Source: Candidatus Venteria ishoeyi
GTDB taxonomy: Bacteria > Pseudomonadota > Gammaproteobacteria > Beggiatoales > Beggiatoaceae
DNA length: 64,000 nucleotides
NCBI RefSeq assembly: GCF_030378065.1
Contig: NZ_JAUCGJ010000021.1
Span: 1 to 64,000 of the forward strand
Reading direction: 5' to 3'
The notes beneath the pieces are model-generated. The model was not told where the DNA came from. It saw only the letters and a list, made by a program, of their open reading frames with translations, and made no database searches. This document shows positions 41,461 to 48,375 of this stretch, one piece after another. Each line of letters begins with the position of its first letter. Position 1 is the stretch's first letter. Made by a program: the position numbers and the translations under genes.

Positions 41461-41493
41461 AGACCTTCCAGGTTTTCAAAACCTGGAAGGTCT
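41461..41493. repeat. 33-bp perfect palindrome, possible ctpA terminator
   Basis: Identical to the palindrome at 19205-19237. It lies between the convergent ctpA and DUF4139 genes. Confidence 0.8.
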
Positions 41494-41553: not shown

Positions 41554-42975
41554 TTATTTAAGCGTCTCTAATGTCACATTATTCTTATGTGCATTTTTAC
41601 CCTGTCGTAAGACCACTTCATAGGTTAATTCCTGTTTTTGACCGACAGGAATATGTGCCTGGTATTGCACAGTGCGAAAATCGTGCAGTGTAGGCTTTAG
41701 ATCGCTGCGAAATAATACATCACCCTCATATTGCCGCCGTACTTCGAGTTGAATGGGACGTTGCGTGTAATTAATCACTTGTTGACTGTAACGGGTGTGA
41801 CTATCCCAACCCGCGACAGTGCTGCGGCTGTCAAACTGTAATTTGCCACTATCCAGTTTACGGTAGACGTTAGGGCCGCGTAATTTCATTAAAAAGGCAT
41901 CGCGCCAGACTTTTAATTTACGCAGCTCAAATTGTACTTCCGGGTCAACCCCCAGATTTAATTCAATCTTATCGCCTATCGGTACATATTTCAGGTGTTG
42001 CGCAGTCAGCCAGTTTAAGCCTTGTTGCGTTTTTTCCCGGAAAACCTGAACCTGTCCTTCCGGCAAGGGCGTCTTACCCAGTTCAGAGGCCGAGTCATTT
42101 TTCATCAGATATAAACGCACCAGTTGATTACCATATTCGCGTGGGCGATAGCGGTATTCAACCTGCATTGGCACGGCATCCGCTTTAAAGCTGCGCAGGC
42201 GCTTGCTCCAGCCGTCAGCAATGGTTTCCGTGCCTTCAATCGTGTATAAAAAATATTCACTGAGACTTTCTTTAGCCACTTCTTTAGGCGCAGCCATAGC
42301 CGCTGGCACAGCCATATCTGCCATTTCCATCGTGGCTTCTGTTTTTAAGGCCCGTATTGCGTGTTTCATACGGCGCTTGTTTTGTGCTTTTTTCTGATAA
42401 CGCCCGGATGCTTTAATTTGTGTTTGCCTACTGGTCAGACTGCTAATTGATTCAACCAGGTTAATCGTGCCAACCACCAGACGCACCTGGGCATTTTCAT
42501 AATCTTCCCCGGAATGATTACGGATGCGTACAAAACTTTCCAGATTCAGCGTGGTTTCTTCAGGATTGGCAATTGCCAGATAATCCGCCTGCCAGGAAAT
42601 GCCGGAAGTGAAATAGCTGATTTCCAATTCAACTGCACCTTGATATTCGCTGTGTATCTGCCAGTACAGCATTTGCGGTTTATCGTGCGGGAAACGAATA
42701 TCTAAAATTTCCAGTTCAGCGCCGTGGTTGAGAAAACGCAATTCCACCGAGGAGGGATCAATTAAGGTGTTACTCCAGGAAAATTGCAGGGGATTTTTAC
42801 CTTTTTTGAAACTTAAAGTGCGCTTTTCCCGCACCAGGGTTAAATCCTCAGCATTATAAATGGTTAATTGCACCTGCTGACGCGGTGGTACGGTTGATAA
42901 ATCAATATTTTTGGCAAACACGCTCAAGCTGCTAAATAACAAGCTGATAAACAAACAAGACTTAAAAATATTCAT
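41554..42975 (-). CDS. Exported DUF4139 protein (paralogue 1)
   Basis: 473 residues with AGGGAG before ATG 42975 and a signal peptide ending VFA. The N-terminal beta region (VQLTIYNAEDLTLVREKRTL), the FSWSNTLIDPSSVELR motif and the C-terminal domain (NYTQRPIQLEVRRQYEGDVL) fit DUF4139/DUF4140 proteins, large all-beta exported proteins of unknown role. A low-complexity Ala/Met stretch (about 210-235) lies in the middle. It is the third gene of an operon after the TssG fusion and the next DUF4139 gene, with 14 bases between. Confidence 0.75.
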   Translation of the reverse strand: MNIFKSCLFISLLFSSLSVFAKNIDLSTVPPRQQVQLTIYNAEDLTLVREKRTLSFKKGKNPLQFSWSNTLIDPSSVELRFLNHGAELEILDIRFPHDKPQMLYWQIHSEYQGAVELEISYFTSGISWQADYLAIANPEETTLNLESFVRIRNHSGEDYENAQVRLVVGTINLVESISSLTSRQTQIKASGRYQKKAQNKRRMKHAIRALKTEATMEMADMAVPAAMAAPKEVAKESLSEYFLYTIEGTETIADGWSKRLRSFKADAVPMQVEYRYRPREYGNQLVRLYLMKNDSASELGKTPLPEGQVQVFREKTQQGLNWLTAQHLKYVPIGDKIELNLGVDPEVQFELRKLKVWRDAFLMKLRGPNVYRKLDSGKLQFDSRSTVAGWDSHTRYSQQVINYTQRPIQLEVRRQYEGDVLFRSDLKPTLHDFRTVQYQAHIPVGQKQELTYEVVLRQGKNAHKNNVTLETLK

Positions 42976-42989
42976 GGTTTATAACTCCC

Positions 42990-44192
42990 TTAACGCCATT
43001 CATTTTTCAGTAAAATTGCCAGTTTGTGCACGATTTTCCTGGCACTGCCATCGGCATTGCGCGCAGGCAGATCCGTGGTGTAATATAATTTTTCAAAACT
43101 GCTTTTTTCCGGATCGGCAGCCGTGCTGAACGTGGTTTCATCCAGAATTTCCCACTCCACATCCTGATCGGTATAACCGCGCAACTCATTACGCACGGCC
43201 CACAGGTTTTCTGCAATGTTCAGTGCAACGGCTTTATTTTTGAAATTTTCAATTTCATAACGAATAATCACTTTATGGTTGTATAAGTTGCCAGCAACCC
43301 GCTGTTGCTCGCTTTTTTCTATGCTGCGCTTGACCACAATATCCTGTGCCACGCCCAGGTATAAAGCCATTTCATCATCGCGCGGTGTAAAATGTCCCCA
43401 GTCCTCACCAATAAATACCTGACTGCCCTGGCTGTCCGTTTGAAAAATACGCACTTTCCCCGCCGCCAGCGGGGTTTTGCCTAAATGATGCTCGGCATCA
43501 TTGTTTAAGACATAATGCATGGGGACTTTTAATTTTTTTTGTGGCGCATTGAGATAACCATAGTCTTCCAGGTCTGCGGTATAGGTTTTTTCTATCGGTA
43601 CATTGGTATAAGATGCAAATAACAATTTCTGACTTTCATTAAGCGCAATAGAGCGTTGAAAAACACCACCAAAACCTGCCTGAATCCGGCTGTCAGTAAA
43701 TGACTCTCCGGCATGATTTTTCACCTTAAGGTATTGTGATAAGCTCAGGGTTTTTTCCTCGCCGTCACTGAGTGCGCGATAGCTGAAACTGCGTGACAGT
43801 TGATGCAGTATATAACTGATACGCACCCGGGCTGTTGCCGTTTGTTGCGCACCAACATTCCAGACCAGTGCATTCTCCCCAGGCGGATAACTCACCGATA
43901 ATACCTGTACGGCATCGCCACTGGGTTCCATCACCCGAAATACAATACTGTCCGGGTCGATACCGGTATTGGCCCAGGAAAAATCAACTTGATTATTGCC
44001 CTGAATCAAAGGCACCAGGCGCTCTTCTTCCACTAAGGTCACTGCGGCATTATCAAGATGTACTTCCACACGCTCACGGGGGGGCAGGGTGATGAGTTTA
44101 ATGCGCGCCCAGGCCTCTAAGGGTGCAAACAGTACCAGTGCTAAAATAAAAGCCGTTGTTACAATTTTGCTGAGTTGAAATGGATAAGACAT
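42990..44192 (-). CDS. Exported DUF4139 protein (paralogue 2)
   Basis: 400 residues with AGGAG eight bases before ATG 44192 and a signal peptide ending AWA. The same layout as its neighbour (LPPRERVEVHLDNAAVTLVE; VDFSWANTGIDPDSIVFR) shows an old tandem duplication. It lacks the central insert of the other. It follows the TssG fusion by 13 bases, so the three genes are one transcription unit. Location is expected to be periplasmic or outer surface; function unknown. Confidence 0.75.
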   Translation of the reverse strand: MSYPFQLSKIVTTAFILALVLFAPLEAWARIKLITLPPRERVEVHLDNAAVTLVEEERLVPLIQGNNQVDFSWANTGIDPDSIVFRVMEPSGDAVQVLSVSYPPGENALVWNVGAQQTATARVRISYILHQLSRSFSYRALSDGEEKTLSLSQYLKVKNHAGESFTDSRIQAGFGGVFQRSIALNESQKLLFASYTNVPIEKTYTADLEDYGYLNAPQKKLKVPMHYVLNNDAEHHLGKTPLAAGKVRIFQTDSQGSQVFIGEDWGHFTPRDDEMALYLGVAQDIVVKRSIEKSEQQRVAGNLYNHKVIIRYEIENFKNKAVALNIAENLWAVRNELRGYTDQDVEWEILDETTFSTAADPEKSSFEKLYYTTDLPARNADGSARKIVHKLAILLKNEWR

Positions 44193-44205
44193 CAGCGTTC
44201 TCCTG

Positions 44206-45648
44206 TTAGACTTTATAATGGTTACGATGAGTATAAATAGACATTAGCATTTGTCGGATTCTGGGATATTTTTCTATAATCCATTCCACATCGGCTTTGT
44301 CCAGTTCCAGTAATTTGGTGTCTGCGGTGGTAATCACCGTTGCCATGCGGGGTTTGTCGGTAAGTAAAGAAAATTCTCCAAAAAAATCACCCACTTGCAG
44401 ATTGGCCAATGTTTTTTCCTGACCTTCTACGGTTTTACGGACAACCTGCACCGACCCGGAGCGAATTAAAAACAGGGAATGACTTTGATCCCCCTGTTGT
44501 ATGACCACGGTATGCATCGGAAGGTTATGCACCTGCATATTATTGTGTATCATTTCACGCGCTTCCTGGGGTAAGTAAGCCAGCAATGGAATCGTGGTCT
44601 CTGATTTTTCCTTTAATAATTTTTTGGGGCGTAGCGTAACCTGTGGATTTTGCTGGAAATCAGCACTTTTCAACCAACTGGTCCAGGACAGGCGCGCACC
44701 CTTTTTATGACTCAGGGTACAAGCAGGCACGGCTGCTTTTTTTAAGCGAATTTCCAGATCAAAATCCAATTCGGGGCCAATAAAAAAACGGGTGAGTTCA
44801 CATAAGGGGATAAATCCCCAGCCAATGGGCAGAAAATTGAGAAAAGCCTGGAAATCCAGGGCTTCAGTTTGTATCAGCAGTTTGCCTTGTTGATCCCAGA
44901 CCCGGCTGCCTAAAGCCGCACCCTGCCCCAGGCTTTGCTGTTGGCCTTTGGCGGAACCCAGATGGGTGCAGGCATCTTCTGATAACTCTAACCATTGCCC
45001 AATAAACGGTAAAACCTTCATTTTAACCCGGAAATAATCCGATAACATGGCTTCCAGCGCAACCTGGGAATGTGGCTCATGCTGTAATATACCCGCATAA
45101 TGCAATAAGGCATGGTCTTCAGTCTGCATGCGCTGCTGCAAACCTTCCGTACCCATGCCAAACAGAGAAAATAAAAAGCGCGCAAAGCGTGATTGCCAGG
45201 GGGTGTTTTCGCCATAACCCAAACGGTGGGTACTGCGCACCCGGTATTGCAGTGATAACAGACGATGGTTAAAAATATCCAGAAAGCTTTTTAGCGCCGT
45301 GTCTTTATTCCATACCCGATCCATAATCAGTTCAGTATAGGGTGTGGGCAAGGGGCCGTTAGCACCCGCCAGCCCCATGAAATTAACCTGCATTTGTGGA
45401 CGGGTATCGCTTATGTTGGGGTCTTGCGCGTCCGGGACTTCAATCTCATCAATCTCAGTTGCAGGAAAGCGAATGTCGACTTTAGAGCGAAAACAGATAG
45501 CTTCCTGCATCGGGTTATTATGTTGTGCAGGGCGATGGGCTGCTGGCGCACATTGTAATAATAGGCGCACCGCCTGATAAAATTCAAAGCGATGTGCCTC
45601 TTTTAATAAGCTTTCCAACACTGTAATACGGCGTTTTAATGGGGGCAT
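44206..45648 (-). CDS. TssG-like protein fused to cyclic-nucleotide-binding domain
   Basis: 480 residues. Residues 1-330 match TssG/ImpH/VasB, a baseplate-wedge protein of type VI secretion: LLKEAHRFEFYQAVRLL, the loop FMGLAGANGPLP (91-102), FLDIFNHRLLSLQYR and the closing RLSWTSWL. Residues about 366-465 form a Crp-like cyclic-nucleotide-binding domain with an apparently complete phosphate-binding cassette (GDFFGEFSLLTDKPRMATV; Glu425, Arg434). TssG normally ends before this point, so it is a fusion. No other T6SS gene is in the 64-kb window; instead two exported DUF4139 genes follow by 13-14 bases. ATG 45648 has only a weak AGG upstream. The TssG part appears complete. Confidence 0.85.
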   Translation of the reverse strand: MPPLKRRITVLESLLKEAHRFEFYQAVRLLLQCAPAAHRPAQHNNPMQEAICFRSKVDIRFPATEIDEIEVPDAQDPNISDTRPQMQVNFMGLAGANGPLPTPYTELIMDRVWNKDTALKSFLDIFNHRLLSLQYRVRSTHRLGYGENTPWQSRFARFLFSLFGMGTEGLQQRMQTEDHALLHYAGILQHEPHSQVALEAMLSDYFRVKMKVLPFIGQWLELSEDACTHLGSAKGQQQSLGQGAALGSRVWDQQGKLLIQTEALDFQAFLNFLPIGWGFIPLCELTRFFIGPELDFDLEIRLKKAAVPACTLSHKKGARLSWTSWLKSADFQQNPQVTLRPKKLLKEKSETTIPLLAYLPQEAREMIHNNMQVHNLPMHTVVIQQGDQSHSLFLIRSGSVQVVRKTVEGQEKTLANLQVGDFFGEFSLLTDKPRMATVITTADTKLLELDKADVEWIIEKYPRIRQMLMSIYTHRNHYKV

Positions 45649-45763: not shown

Positions 45764-48001
45764 TCAATTTATTGGCTCTACACTGTTTTTCATGTTGATC
45801 ACCCGGGGGCTGCCATAAACGTGATGTAGATTTTCAATTTGCAGCAGCGCTTTACTCAGTTGGCGCAAGTTTCTGATTTCAATACTCATCACCATATTGG
45901 CGATGTTTTCTTTGTCCGTCTGGGTTTGCATTGCCATGATGTTAACCCGGGCATCGGACAGAATGCTGCTGATGTCGCGTACTAAACCAAACCGGTCATC
46001 GGCTTTAATTTCAATATCCACTGCATAACTTTGTTCCGGCAGACTCTCCCAGTTCAGCGTGACCAGCCCTGGATGGTTGGCGGCTTTCCAGGTAATCACT
46101 TTCAGACAGTCTGAACGATGCACCTCAACGCCACGGGAGGTAAAATAACCGGTAATCGCTTGATGGGGTTCCGGGTGACAACAATCGGCAGTGAACATTT
46201 TAATATGGGCATCGTCTACGGCGCTACTGTGTGACATCAGCGGATGACTGCGCAAGGTGCGCGGTTGGGCATGATGGGGTAATAATTTGCTGCCAAAAGA
46301 GGTCACTACTTCCGAAGTCTCCAGGTCGCCACGACCAATCGCGGCAAGAAACCCTTCCAGGTCTTCAAAATCAAACTGCTCTGCCAGTTCCGATAAATTG
46401 GCATCCGCAACATTTAAGCGATATAACTCACGATTTAGCGCAGATCGCCCTTCGGCAACATGGTGTTCATCATCTTGTTGTTTCAGCCATTGTTTAATCC
46501 GGGTAAGTGCACGGGATGTTTTAACATAGCCCAGTTGCTCATCCAGCCAGCGCCGGTTGGGGCGCGCATGTTCAGATTTGATGATTTCAACCTGATCGCC
46601 GGTATGCAAAGGATAGGTCAGGGGCATAATGCGTCCATTAACCCGTGCCCCACGGCAGCGATGCCCTAATTCGGTATGAATATAATAGGCAAAATCAATC
46701 GGTGTTGCACCACTGGGTAAGTCAATGATTTTACCCTCAGGGCTGCGCACATAAACTCTGGCTTCATGTAATTCTGATTGAAAACGCCGAATAAAGTCCC
46801 CCGCGCTGACTTCTTCATCCTGCCAGGTTAGCACTTGCCGCATCCAGGCAATTTTACGTTCAAAATCCTCATCAGGATGAGAACCTTCCTTATAACGCCA
46901 ATGGGAGGCCACGCCCAACTCGGAATGATGGTGCATCTGCTGGGTGCGGATTTGCACTTCAAAGGTCTGCTGATTGGGGCCAATGACCGCAGTATGTAAG
47001 GAGCTGTAATCATTGATTTTGGGGTTGGCGATATAATCATCAAACTCCCCCGGCACGGGTGGTGATTGTTTGTGAATCAAACCCAGCGCCAGGTAACATT
47101 CCTGTTCGGTATTGACGATAACCCGCACCGCCAGCACGTCATACAGTTCATGATAATCCAGTTGCTTGCGCTGCATCTTTTCCCAGATGCTGTAGATATG
47201 TTTGGGACGCCCCATGACCTGCGCCTGGATACCTGCCTGCTCCAGCGTTTCCCTGATTTGCTGCATCATTTGCGCAATATGTGCTTCCCGATCAGTGCGG
47301 CGCTCTTGCAATAAACTGGCAATTTGCTTGTATTGCTCAGGTTGCAGATAACGCAGAGAAAGGTCTTCCAGCTCCCATTTAATCTGCCAGATACCCAGGC
47401 GATTGGCCAGTGGTGCAAAAATATCCAAGGTTTCGTGGGCAATGCGGCGTTGCTGGGCAGCGGATAAATGGCGTAACATGCGCATTTCATGCAGGCGTTC
47501 AGCGAGTTTAATCAACATCACCCGTACATCTTCGACCATCGCCAGAATCATCCGGCGCAGGTTTTCCGTTTGTTGATTTTGCCCCTGATTATTCAGATTT
47601 TCTTCAGCATCAAGTTTAAGCTCACTGAGAAAACCCATTTTATTCACACCATCAACCATTTTTGCGACAGCGTCCCCAAACTGCTGGCGCACAGTTTGCA
47701 CATCCAGATCACCGGTTTCCACCGGATCATGCAAAATAGAAGCAATCAGCGTGTCGGTATCCATGTTCAGTTGCGCCAGTAAATCAAGCACGGTAAAAAC
47801 ATGGTTAATAGCCGGTTCACCGGTGGGGCGTAATTTATCCTGACAGCGTTGCTGCGCCAGTTTAAAAGCGCGTATCAGGGTATCCCGTTCCTTAGCTGTG
47901 CGATCTTGACTGACTTGTTCAAACCAGGCATCTAGTTGTAACAAGCCGGGTTTGCTGTTGCTGTGTGCAGGTTCGCTCATATTAAGTGCATTTGTATTCA
48001 T
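45764..48001 (-). CDS. relA: GTP pyrophosphokinase (stringent response)
   Basis: 745 residues from ATG 48001; ATG 47980 and TTG 48025 are alternatives, none with a clear ribosome site. The order is HD-type domain (about 50-190), synthetase (GRPKHIYSIWEKMQRK; YHELYDVLAVRV; EVQIRTQQMHHHSELGVASHW), TGS (VRSPEGKIIDLPSGATPIDF), helical/zinc-finger region and C-terminal ACT. The hydrolase motif HDPVETGD lacks the Asp of the canonical HDxxED, as in RelA rather than SpoT, so it is predicted to make but not break (p)ppGpp. Confidence 0.93.
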   Translation of the reverse strand: MNTNALNMSEPAHSNSKPGLLQLDAWFEQVSQDRTAKERDTLIRAFKLAQQRCQDKLRPTGEPAINHVFTVLDLLAQLNMDTDTLIASILHDPVETGDLDVQTVRQQFGDAVAKMVDGVNKMGFLSELKLDAEENLNNQGQNQQTENLRRMILAMVEDVRVMLIKLAERLHEMRMLRHLSAAQQRRIAHETLDIFAPLANRLGIWQIKWELEDLSLRYLQPEQYKQIASLLQERRTDREAHIAQMMQQIRETLEQAGIQAQVMGRPKHIYSIWEKMQRKQLDYHELYDVLAVRVIVNTEQECYLALGLIHKQSPPVPGEFDDYIANPKINDYSSLHTAVIGPNQQTFEVQIRTQQMHHHSELGVASHWRYKEGSHPDEDFERKIAWMRQVLTWQDEEVSAGDFIRRFQSELHEARVYVRSPEGKIIDLPSGATPIDFAYYIHTELGHRCRGARVNGRIMPLTYPLHTGDQVEIIKSEHARPNRRWLDEQLGYVKTSRALTRIKQWLKQQDDEHHVAEGRSALNRELYRLNVADANLSELAEQFDFEDLEGFLAAIGRGDLETSEVVTSFGSKLLPHHAQPRTLRSHPLMSHSSAVDDAHIKMFTADCCHPEPHQAITGYFTSRGVEVHRSDCLKVITWKAANHPGLVTLNWESLPEQSYAVDIEIKADDRFGLVRDISSILSDARVNIMAMQTQTDKENIANMVMSIEIRNLRQLSKALLQIENLHHVYGSPRVINMKNSVEPIN

Positions 48002-48375
48002 AAGGTGGTTTATTCCAAAGACCAAGCGATAACGATTACACTATTTTCTGGCAATCGTCCAAATAATCGGCGGATTAAGCTGAAGCAAGGATTTGCAGGA
48101 TTTGAAGAATGATAAAATTTCCCTAAGCCTGACAGCCTCCTAGATTCAGCTTATGTTAAAATACCGTTATTTTTTTATCTTTAATGATTGTTATGTTGTA
48201 CTGATGTTGCACAGTTGCTGCTTTTTTGCACCAAAATAGTGTTTGGCAAGGTGCAAATACAAATCAGCGTGAAGCAAAAGTGGTTTTTTTGTGTTTCAAA
48301 CCTTCAAAACCTGCAAAAAAGAAGCTTTTGCGTAACACCGTTATTTTATTATACATTGAAACGAGAAATACGCTT
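48002..48375. other. Intergenic region between relA and moxR
   Basis: About 374 bp between divergent genes. It holds a half-copy of the GACAGCCTCC element (48131-48140). The moxR frame is open through much of it back to 48226, but that part reads as low-complexity Lys-rich sequence and is not counted as coding. Confidence 0.5.

Follow-up and report, generated by a model that had tools for sequence, protein, structure and literature searches.

Do a gene for a type VI secretion system (T6SS) baseplate protein and two tightly following genes for exported proteins form one functional unit, or do they only adjoin? In this stretch of DNA (the window, 64,000 nucleotides) the three genes occupy positions 41554-45648 of the minus strand, and the preliminary description had proposed that they might be a new envelope system or an effector/adaptor module for a distant T6SS. 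The layout described there was confirmed, namely three open reading frames separated by intergenic gaps of 13 and 14 bp. The features of the locus are as follows:

44206..45648, minus strand: TssG with a C-terminal cNMP-binding domain, 480 aa (open reading frame and profile matches)
44668..45600, minus strand: TssG domain, aa 17-327 (PF06996; genome match G000:C33:44668-45600)
44908..44961, minus strand: three LG repeats (aa 230, 240 and 246), putatively foot 1 for TssK binding (from sequence, cf. PMC8406304)
44266..44526, minus strand: cNMP-binding domain, aa 375-461 (PF00027; matches to cNMP domains in the PDB)
44335..44382, minus strand: phosphate-binding cassette FGEFSLLTDKPRMATV, aa 423-438, with the key Glu and Arg present
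42990..44192, minus strand: exported DUF4139/MuiA-type protein, 400 aa, P2 group (open reading frame and profiles)
41554..42975, minus strand: exported DUF4139/MuiA-type protein, 473 aa, P3 group (open reading frame and profiles)
41461..41493, minus strand: perfect 16-bp inverted repeat, 3' of the last gene

The inverted repeat is a probable terminator that separates the 473-aa gene from a convergent S41 peptidase gene. The Shine-Dalgarno sequence of the 400-aa gene (AGGAG) lies directly after the tssG stop codon and, together with the short gaps, suggests joint transcription of tssG and both DUF4139-type genes. Since 16 of the 29 same-strand neighbour pairs in the window are no more than 20 bp apart, little weight can be given to the tight spacing of the three genes. 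A scan for promoters and terminators returned promoter-like sites no more often than in shuffled sequences. The next gene upstream of tssG, 115 bp away and likewise on the minus strand, is of the RelA/SpoT type (45764-48025; HD, synthetase, TGS and ACT domains).

The 480-aa protein matched the TssG profile PF06996 with E 1.7e-94 (316.9 bits against a cut-off of 24.6) and TIGR03347 with 311.5 bits (cut-off 143.3). The TssG domain is full length in a single intact frame, and this fusion protein is the only TssG of the genome. Two loops of TssG are known to bridge TssF and two TssK trimers (PMC6300606, PMC8406304), and a TssK-binding foot with LG repeats has been described as a TssG feature (PMC8406304). 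The LG repeats at aa 230-247 of the fusion fit foot 1, while foot 2 has no clear assignment. In its full-length domain, its putative LG-repeat foot and the single TssF, TssE, TssK and VgrG that accompany it in the genome, the protein resembles the TssG wedge subunit (PF06996/TIGR03347). Unlike the other TssGs examined, it continues through a linker of about 45 aa into a C-terminal cNMP domain, and its gene stands apart from tssF.

The C-terminal domain matched cNMP_binding (PF00027) with E 1.1e-22. Read from the sequence, its phosphate-binding cassette is intact, with the residues needed for ligand binding in place, and the FGE...PRxATV pattern of the CRP and PKA regulatory subunit type is conserved. 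In contrast to domains of that type, this one sits on a T6SS structural protein and has no DNA-binding or kinase partner. None of the other TssGs examined carries a cNMP domain. This holds also for TssGs with long open frames around them, six of which were fetched and proved to be without the domain. Plasmid records gave no TssG-cNMP fusion either: one record covering 81% of the fusion proved to be an E. coli tssG match continuing into the adjacent tagH. In the literature searched we found nothing on TssG with cyclic-nucleotide binding. By these comparisons of sequence, the TssG-cNMP fusion is a novel form of a known baseplate component, seen in one genome.

What might such a domain do? In two-hybrid assays, a bulky C-terminal fusion on TssG was reported to block the contacts with TssF and TssK (PMC6300606). 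The C-terminal cNMP domain of the present protein could, from that position, switch wedge assembly. Since the phosphate-binding cassette is intact, gating of baseplate assembly by this domain is possible, and the domain may have this role in the one genome from which the fusion is known. That cyclic nucleotides would directly gate the T6SS baseplate through TssG, as a post-translational second-messenger control at the wedge, is a tentative proposal to which we give somewhat less than even credence. The AlphaFold model of the fusion is of low confidence (pLDDT 45).

The preliminary description had noted no sheath, tube or membrane-complex gene near the locus, and our neighbourhood comparison likewise found no T6SS gene in the window besides tssG. 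The assembly of this genome (G000) comprises 4.4 Mb in 115 contigs and is 98.8% complete and 0.35% contaminated. Targeted searches of it, with ClpV, TssA and TssJ outside their scope, returned one match each for TssE, TssF, TssC, TssK and VgrG, and also TssB, Hcp, DotU/TssL and an IcmF_N protein, so that the link to a distant T6SS is borne out by parts on other contigs. The genes are found at six separate places:

Contig C37: tssB-tssC-hcp
Contig C36: tssF
Contig C26: tssK, a DotU/TssL gene and a gene for a 2558-aa IcmF-related_N protein
Contig C22: tssE and three adjoining Hcp-like genes in a row (by eye; L203:5707-8038)
Contig C9: vgrG
Contig C33: the tssG-cNMP fusion

Only tssB-C-hcp, the tssK-L-M-like group and tssE-hcp are still together. 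Because unrelated genes flank the dispersed T6SS genes on both sides in the stretches read (tssF, at 8 kb, is the one nearest to a contig end), the dispersal is more than contig breakage. Loss of the membrane complex was considered, as PF06761 and PF06744 are both absent from the 2558-aa protein (L184:805-8481), and was rejected, since this protein has IcmF-related_N and adjoins TssL and TssK; by its sequence it looks like a divergent TssM type. By eye it appears internally repetitive, and a related 1554-aa protein occurs in G002.

Since the tssG gene is isolated from the remaining T6SS genes, the fusion may have left T6SS service and now be decaying or act as a cyclic-nucleotide sensor on its own. 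The occurrence of the fusion in no other genome examined and the only partial coverage of the T6SS by our searches also speak for this. However, the TssG domain is complete in one frame and strongly matched, the putative TssK-binding foot has three LG repeats, and the genes found for TssK and for sheath, wedge and spike parts are likewise all intact open frames. We thus regard departure from the T6SS as unlikely, although it is the best surviving alternative.

The two downstream proteins were described as exported paralogues, which our data corroborate: Sec-type signal sequences can be recognised by eye at both N-termini, and the two proteins match each other in phmmer at 7e-33 with 27% identity. 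The 473-aa protein exceeds the cut-off of DUF4139 (PF13598; 46 against 31.8 bits). The 400-aa protein falls under it (21.3 bits), and is labelled DUF4139 because of its kinship to the 473-aa protein and its weak matches to the MuiA family. Neither reaches the MuiA cut-off (TIGR02231; 71.0 and 35.9 against 112.6 bits), and DUF4140 was absent from both at E<=1. The pair is thus like the MuiA family in being exported and having a DUF4139-like core, and unlike it in scoring below the family cut-off, in having no detected DUF4140 and in forming an obligate pair of diverged paralogues. Solved structures gave no match for the 473-aa protein, structure prediction of the pair was of low confidence (pLDDT 38), and nothing on DUF4139 function was found in the literature searched.

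Homologues of the 473-aa protein occur in 24 of 115 related genomes, 16 of them in the organism's own family (42 genomes, a size inferred from genome handle numbering). All 16 family carriers have both the 400-aa and the 473-aa types, in tandem in 12, with both gene orders, and at separate loci in four. No wide recurrence was seen among the other neighbours of the pair, and tssG lies beside none of the other pairs examined. TssG itself is present in 22 of the 115 genomes and absent from 11 of the 16 family carriers; TssG and the pair are together in 5 of the 42 family genomes, where 3.8 would be expected (Fisher p = 0.46). Since every family carrier has both types and their association with TssG is at chance, the two DUF4139 genes form a unit of their own, whose products are probably partners in one envelope complex. 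The loci L071-L090 are those of this obligate exported pair; at one of them (L071:8084-8503, G030) a 139-aa open reading frame, by eye possibly a mobile-element fragment, lies between both genes.

The neighbourhoods of tssG lead to the same separation. The nearest TssG homologues, in a family member (L031, G002), Desulfonema magnum (L103), a Desulfobacterales MAG (L104) and a Gemmatimonadetes MAG (L105), stand in the order tssB-C-hcp-E-F-G-clpV; the last three records are 41-49% identical to the window TssG. All four differ from our locus in that tssG belongs to a larger T6SS cluster, has no cNMP domain and has no DUF4139 beside it. Similar clusters without DUF4139 occur at L032 and L107, G026 and G037 have tssG within a partial cluster of this kind, and in the near relative G006 tssG is isolated too. 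A recurrent DUF4139 partner, which the preliminary description would have taken as support for a system, was near none of the other tssG neighbourhoods searched in relatives, a sample from some collections of which records very near this genome may have been left out. Most TssGs of near relatives thus lie in T6SS clusters without DUF4139, the arrangement named beforehand as evidence against a new TssG-DUF4139 system; this comparison used TssG homologues without the cNMP part, no second fusion having been found.

We therefore consider it improbable, more so than departure from the T6SS, that the locus is a functional module in which a cNMP-regulated baseplate subunit and two exported envelope proteins (anchor, adaptor or immunity) serve the same T6SS. 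The tight spacing on one strand, the ties of TssG and the DUF4139 proteins alike to the cell envelope and the five family genomes with both would fit such a module. However, short gaps are frequent in the window, tssG and DUF4139 genes are near each other in no relative, and their co-occurrence shows no statistical association; on the neighbourhoods and this chance co-occurrence, the DUF4139 genes were rejected as T6SS partners. Moreover, the closest DUF4139 homologues in the family (G030, G014 and G013; 54-61% identity) come from genomes without TssG, and G108, outside the family, has a similarly close homologue with its TssG at another place. That the fusion is an artefact of assembly or annotation is very improbable: it does come from one draft genome only, but no stop interrupts its single open frame, each of the two domains is complete and scores strongly, and the assembly is of the high completeness and low contamination given above.

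The explanation that we prefer, with good though not full confidence, is that the TssG-cNMP fusion of a scattered T6SS and an independent DUF4139 pair adjoin through rearrangement. The genome would have one T6SS, with its genes dispersed by rearrangement; the first gene would encode the TssG baseplate subunit of this system, which would have gained its C-terminal cyclic-nucleotide-binding domain. Rearrangement in the organism's own lineage would have placed the DUF4139/MuiA-type pair behind tssG, an arrangement seen in this genome only; the pair may be co-transcribed with tssG, but the comparisons gave no sign of a shared function. The linkage is most likely incidental. Of the proposal made for this locus, the part that assigns the fusion to a distant T6SS stands, and the part that joins it to DUF4139 in one system does not, so that a new TssG-DUF4139 system is not upheld.

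For the organism, these results mean that a T6SS with intact genes has been kept despite their scattering, and for the family that the obligately paired exported DUF4139 proteins are an uncharacterised set. Should the cNMP domain prove functional, the baseplate of the T6SS would itself contain a second-messenger switch, a simple post-translational control of the timing of assembly.
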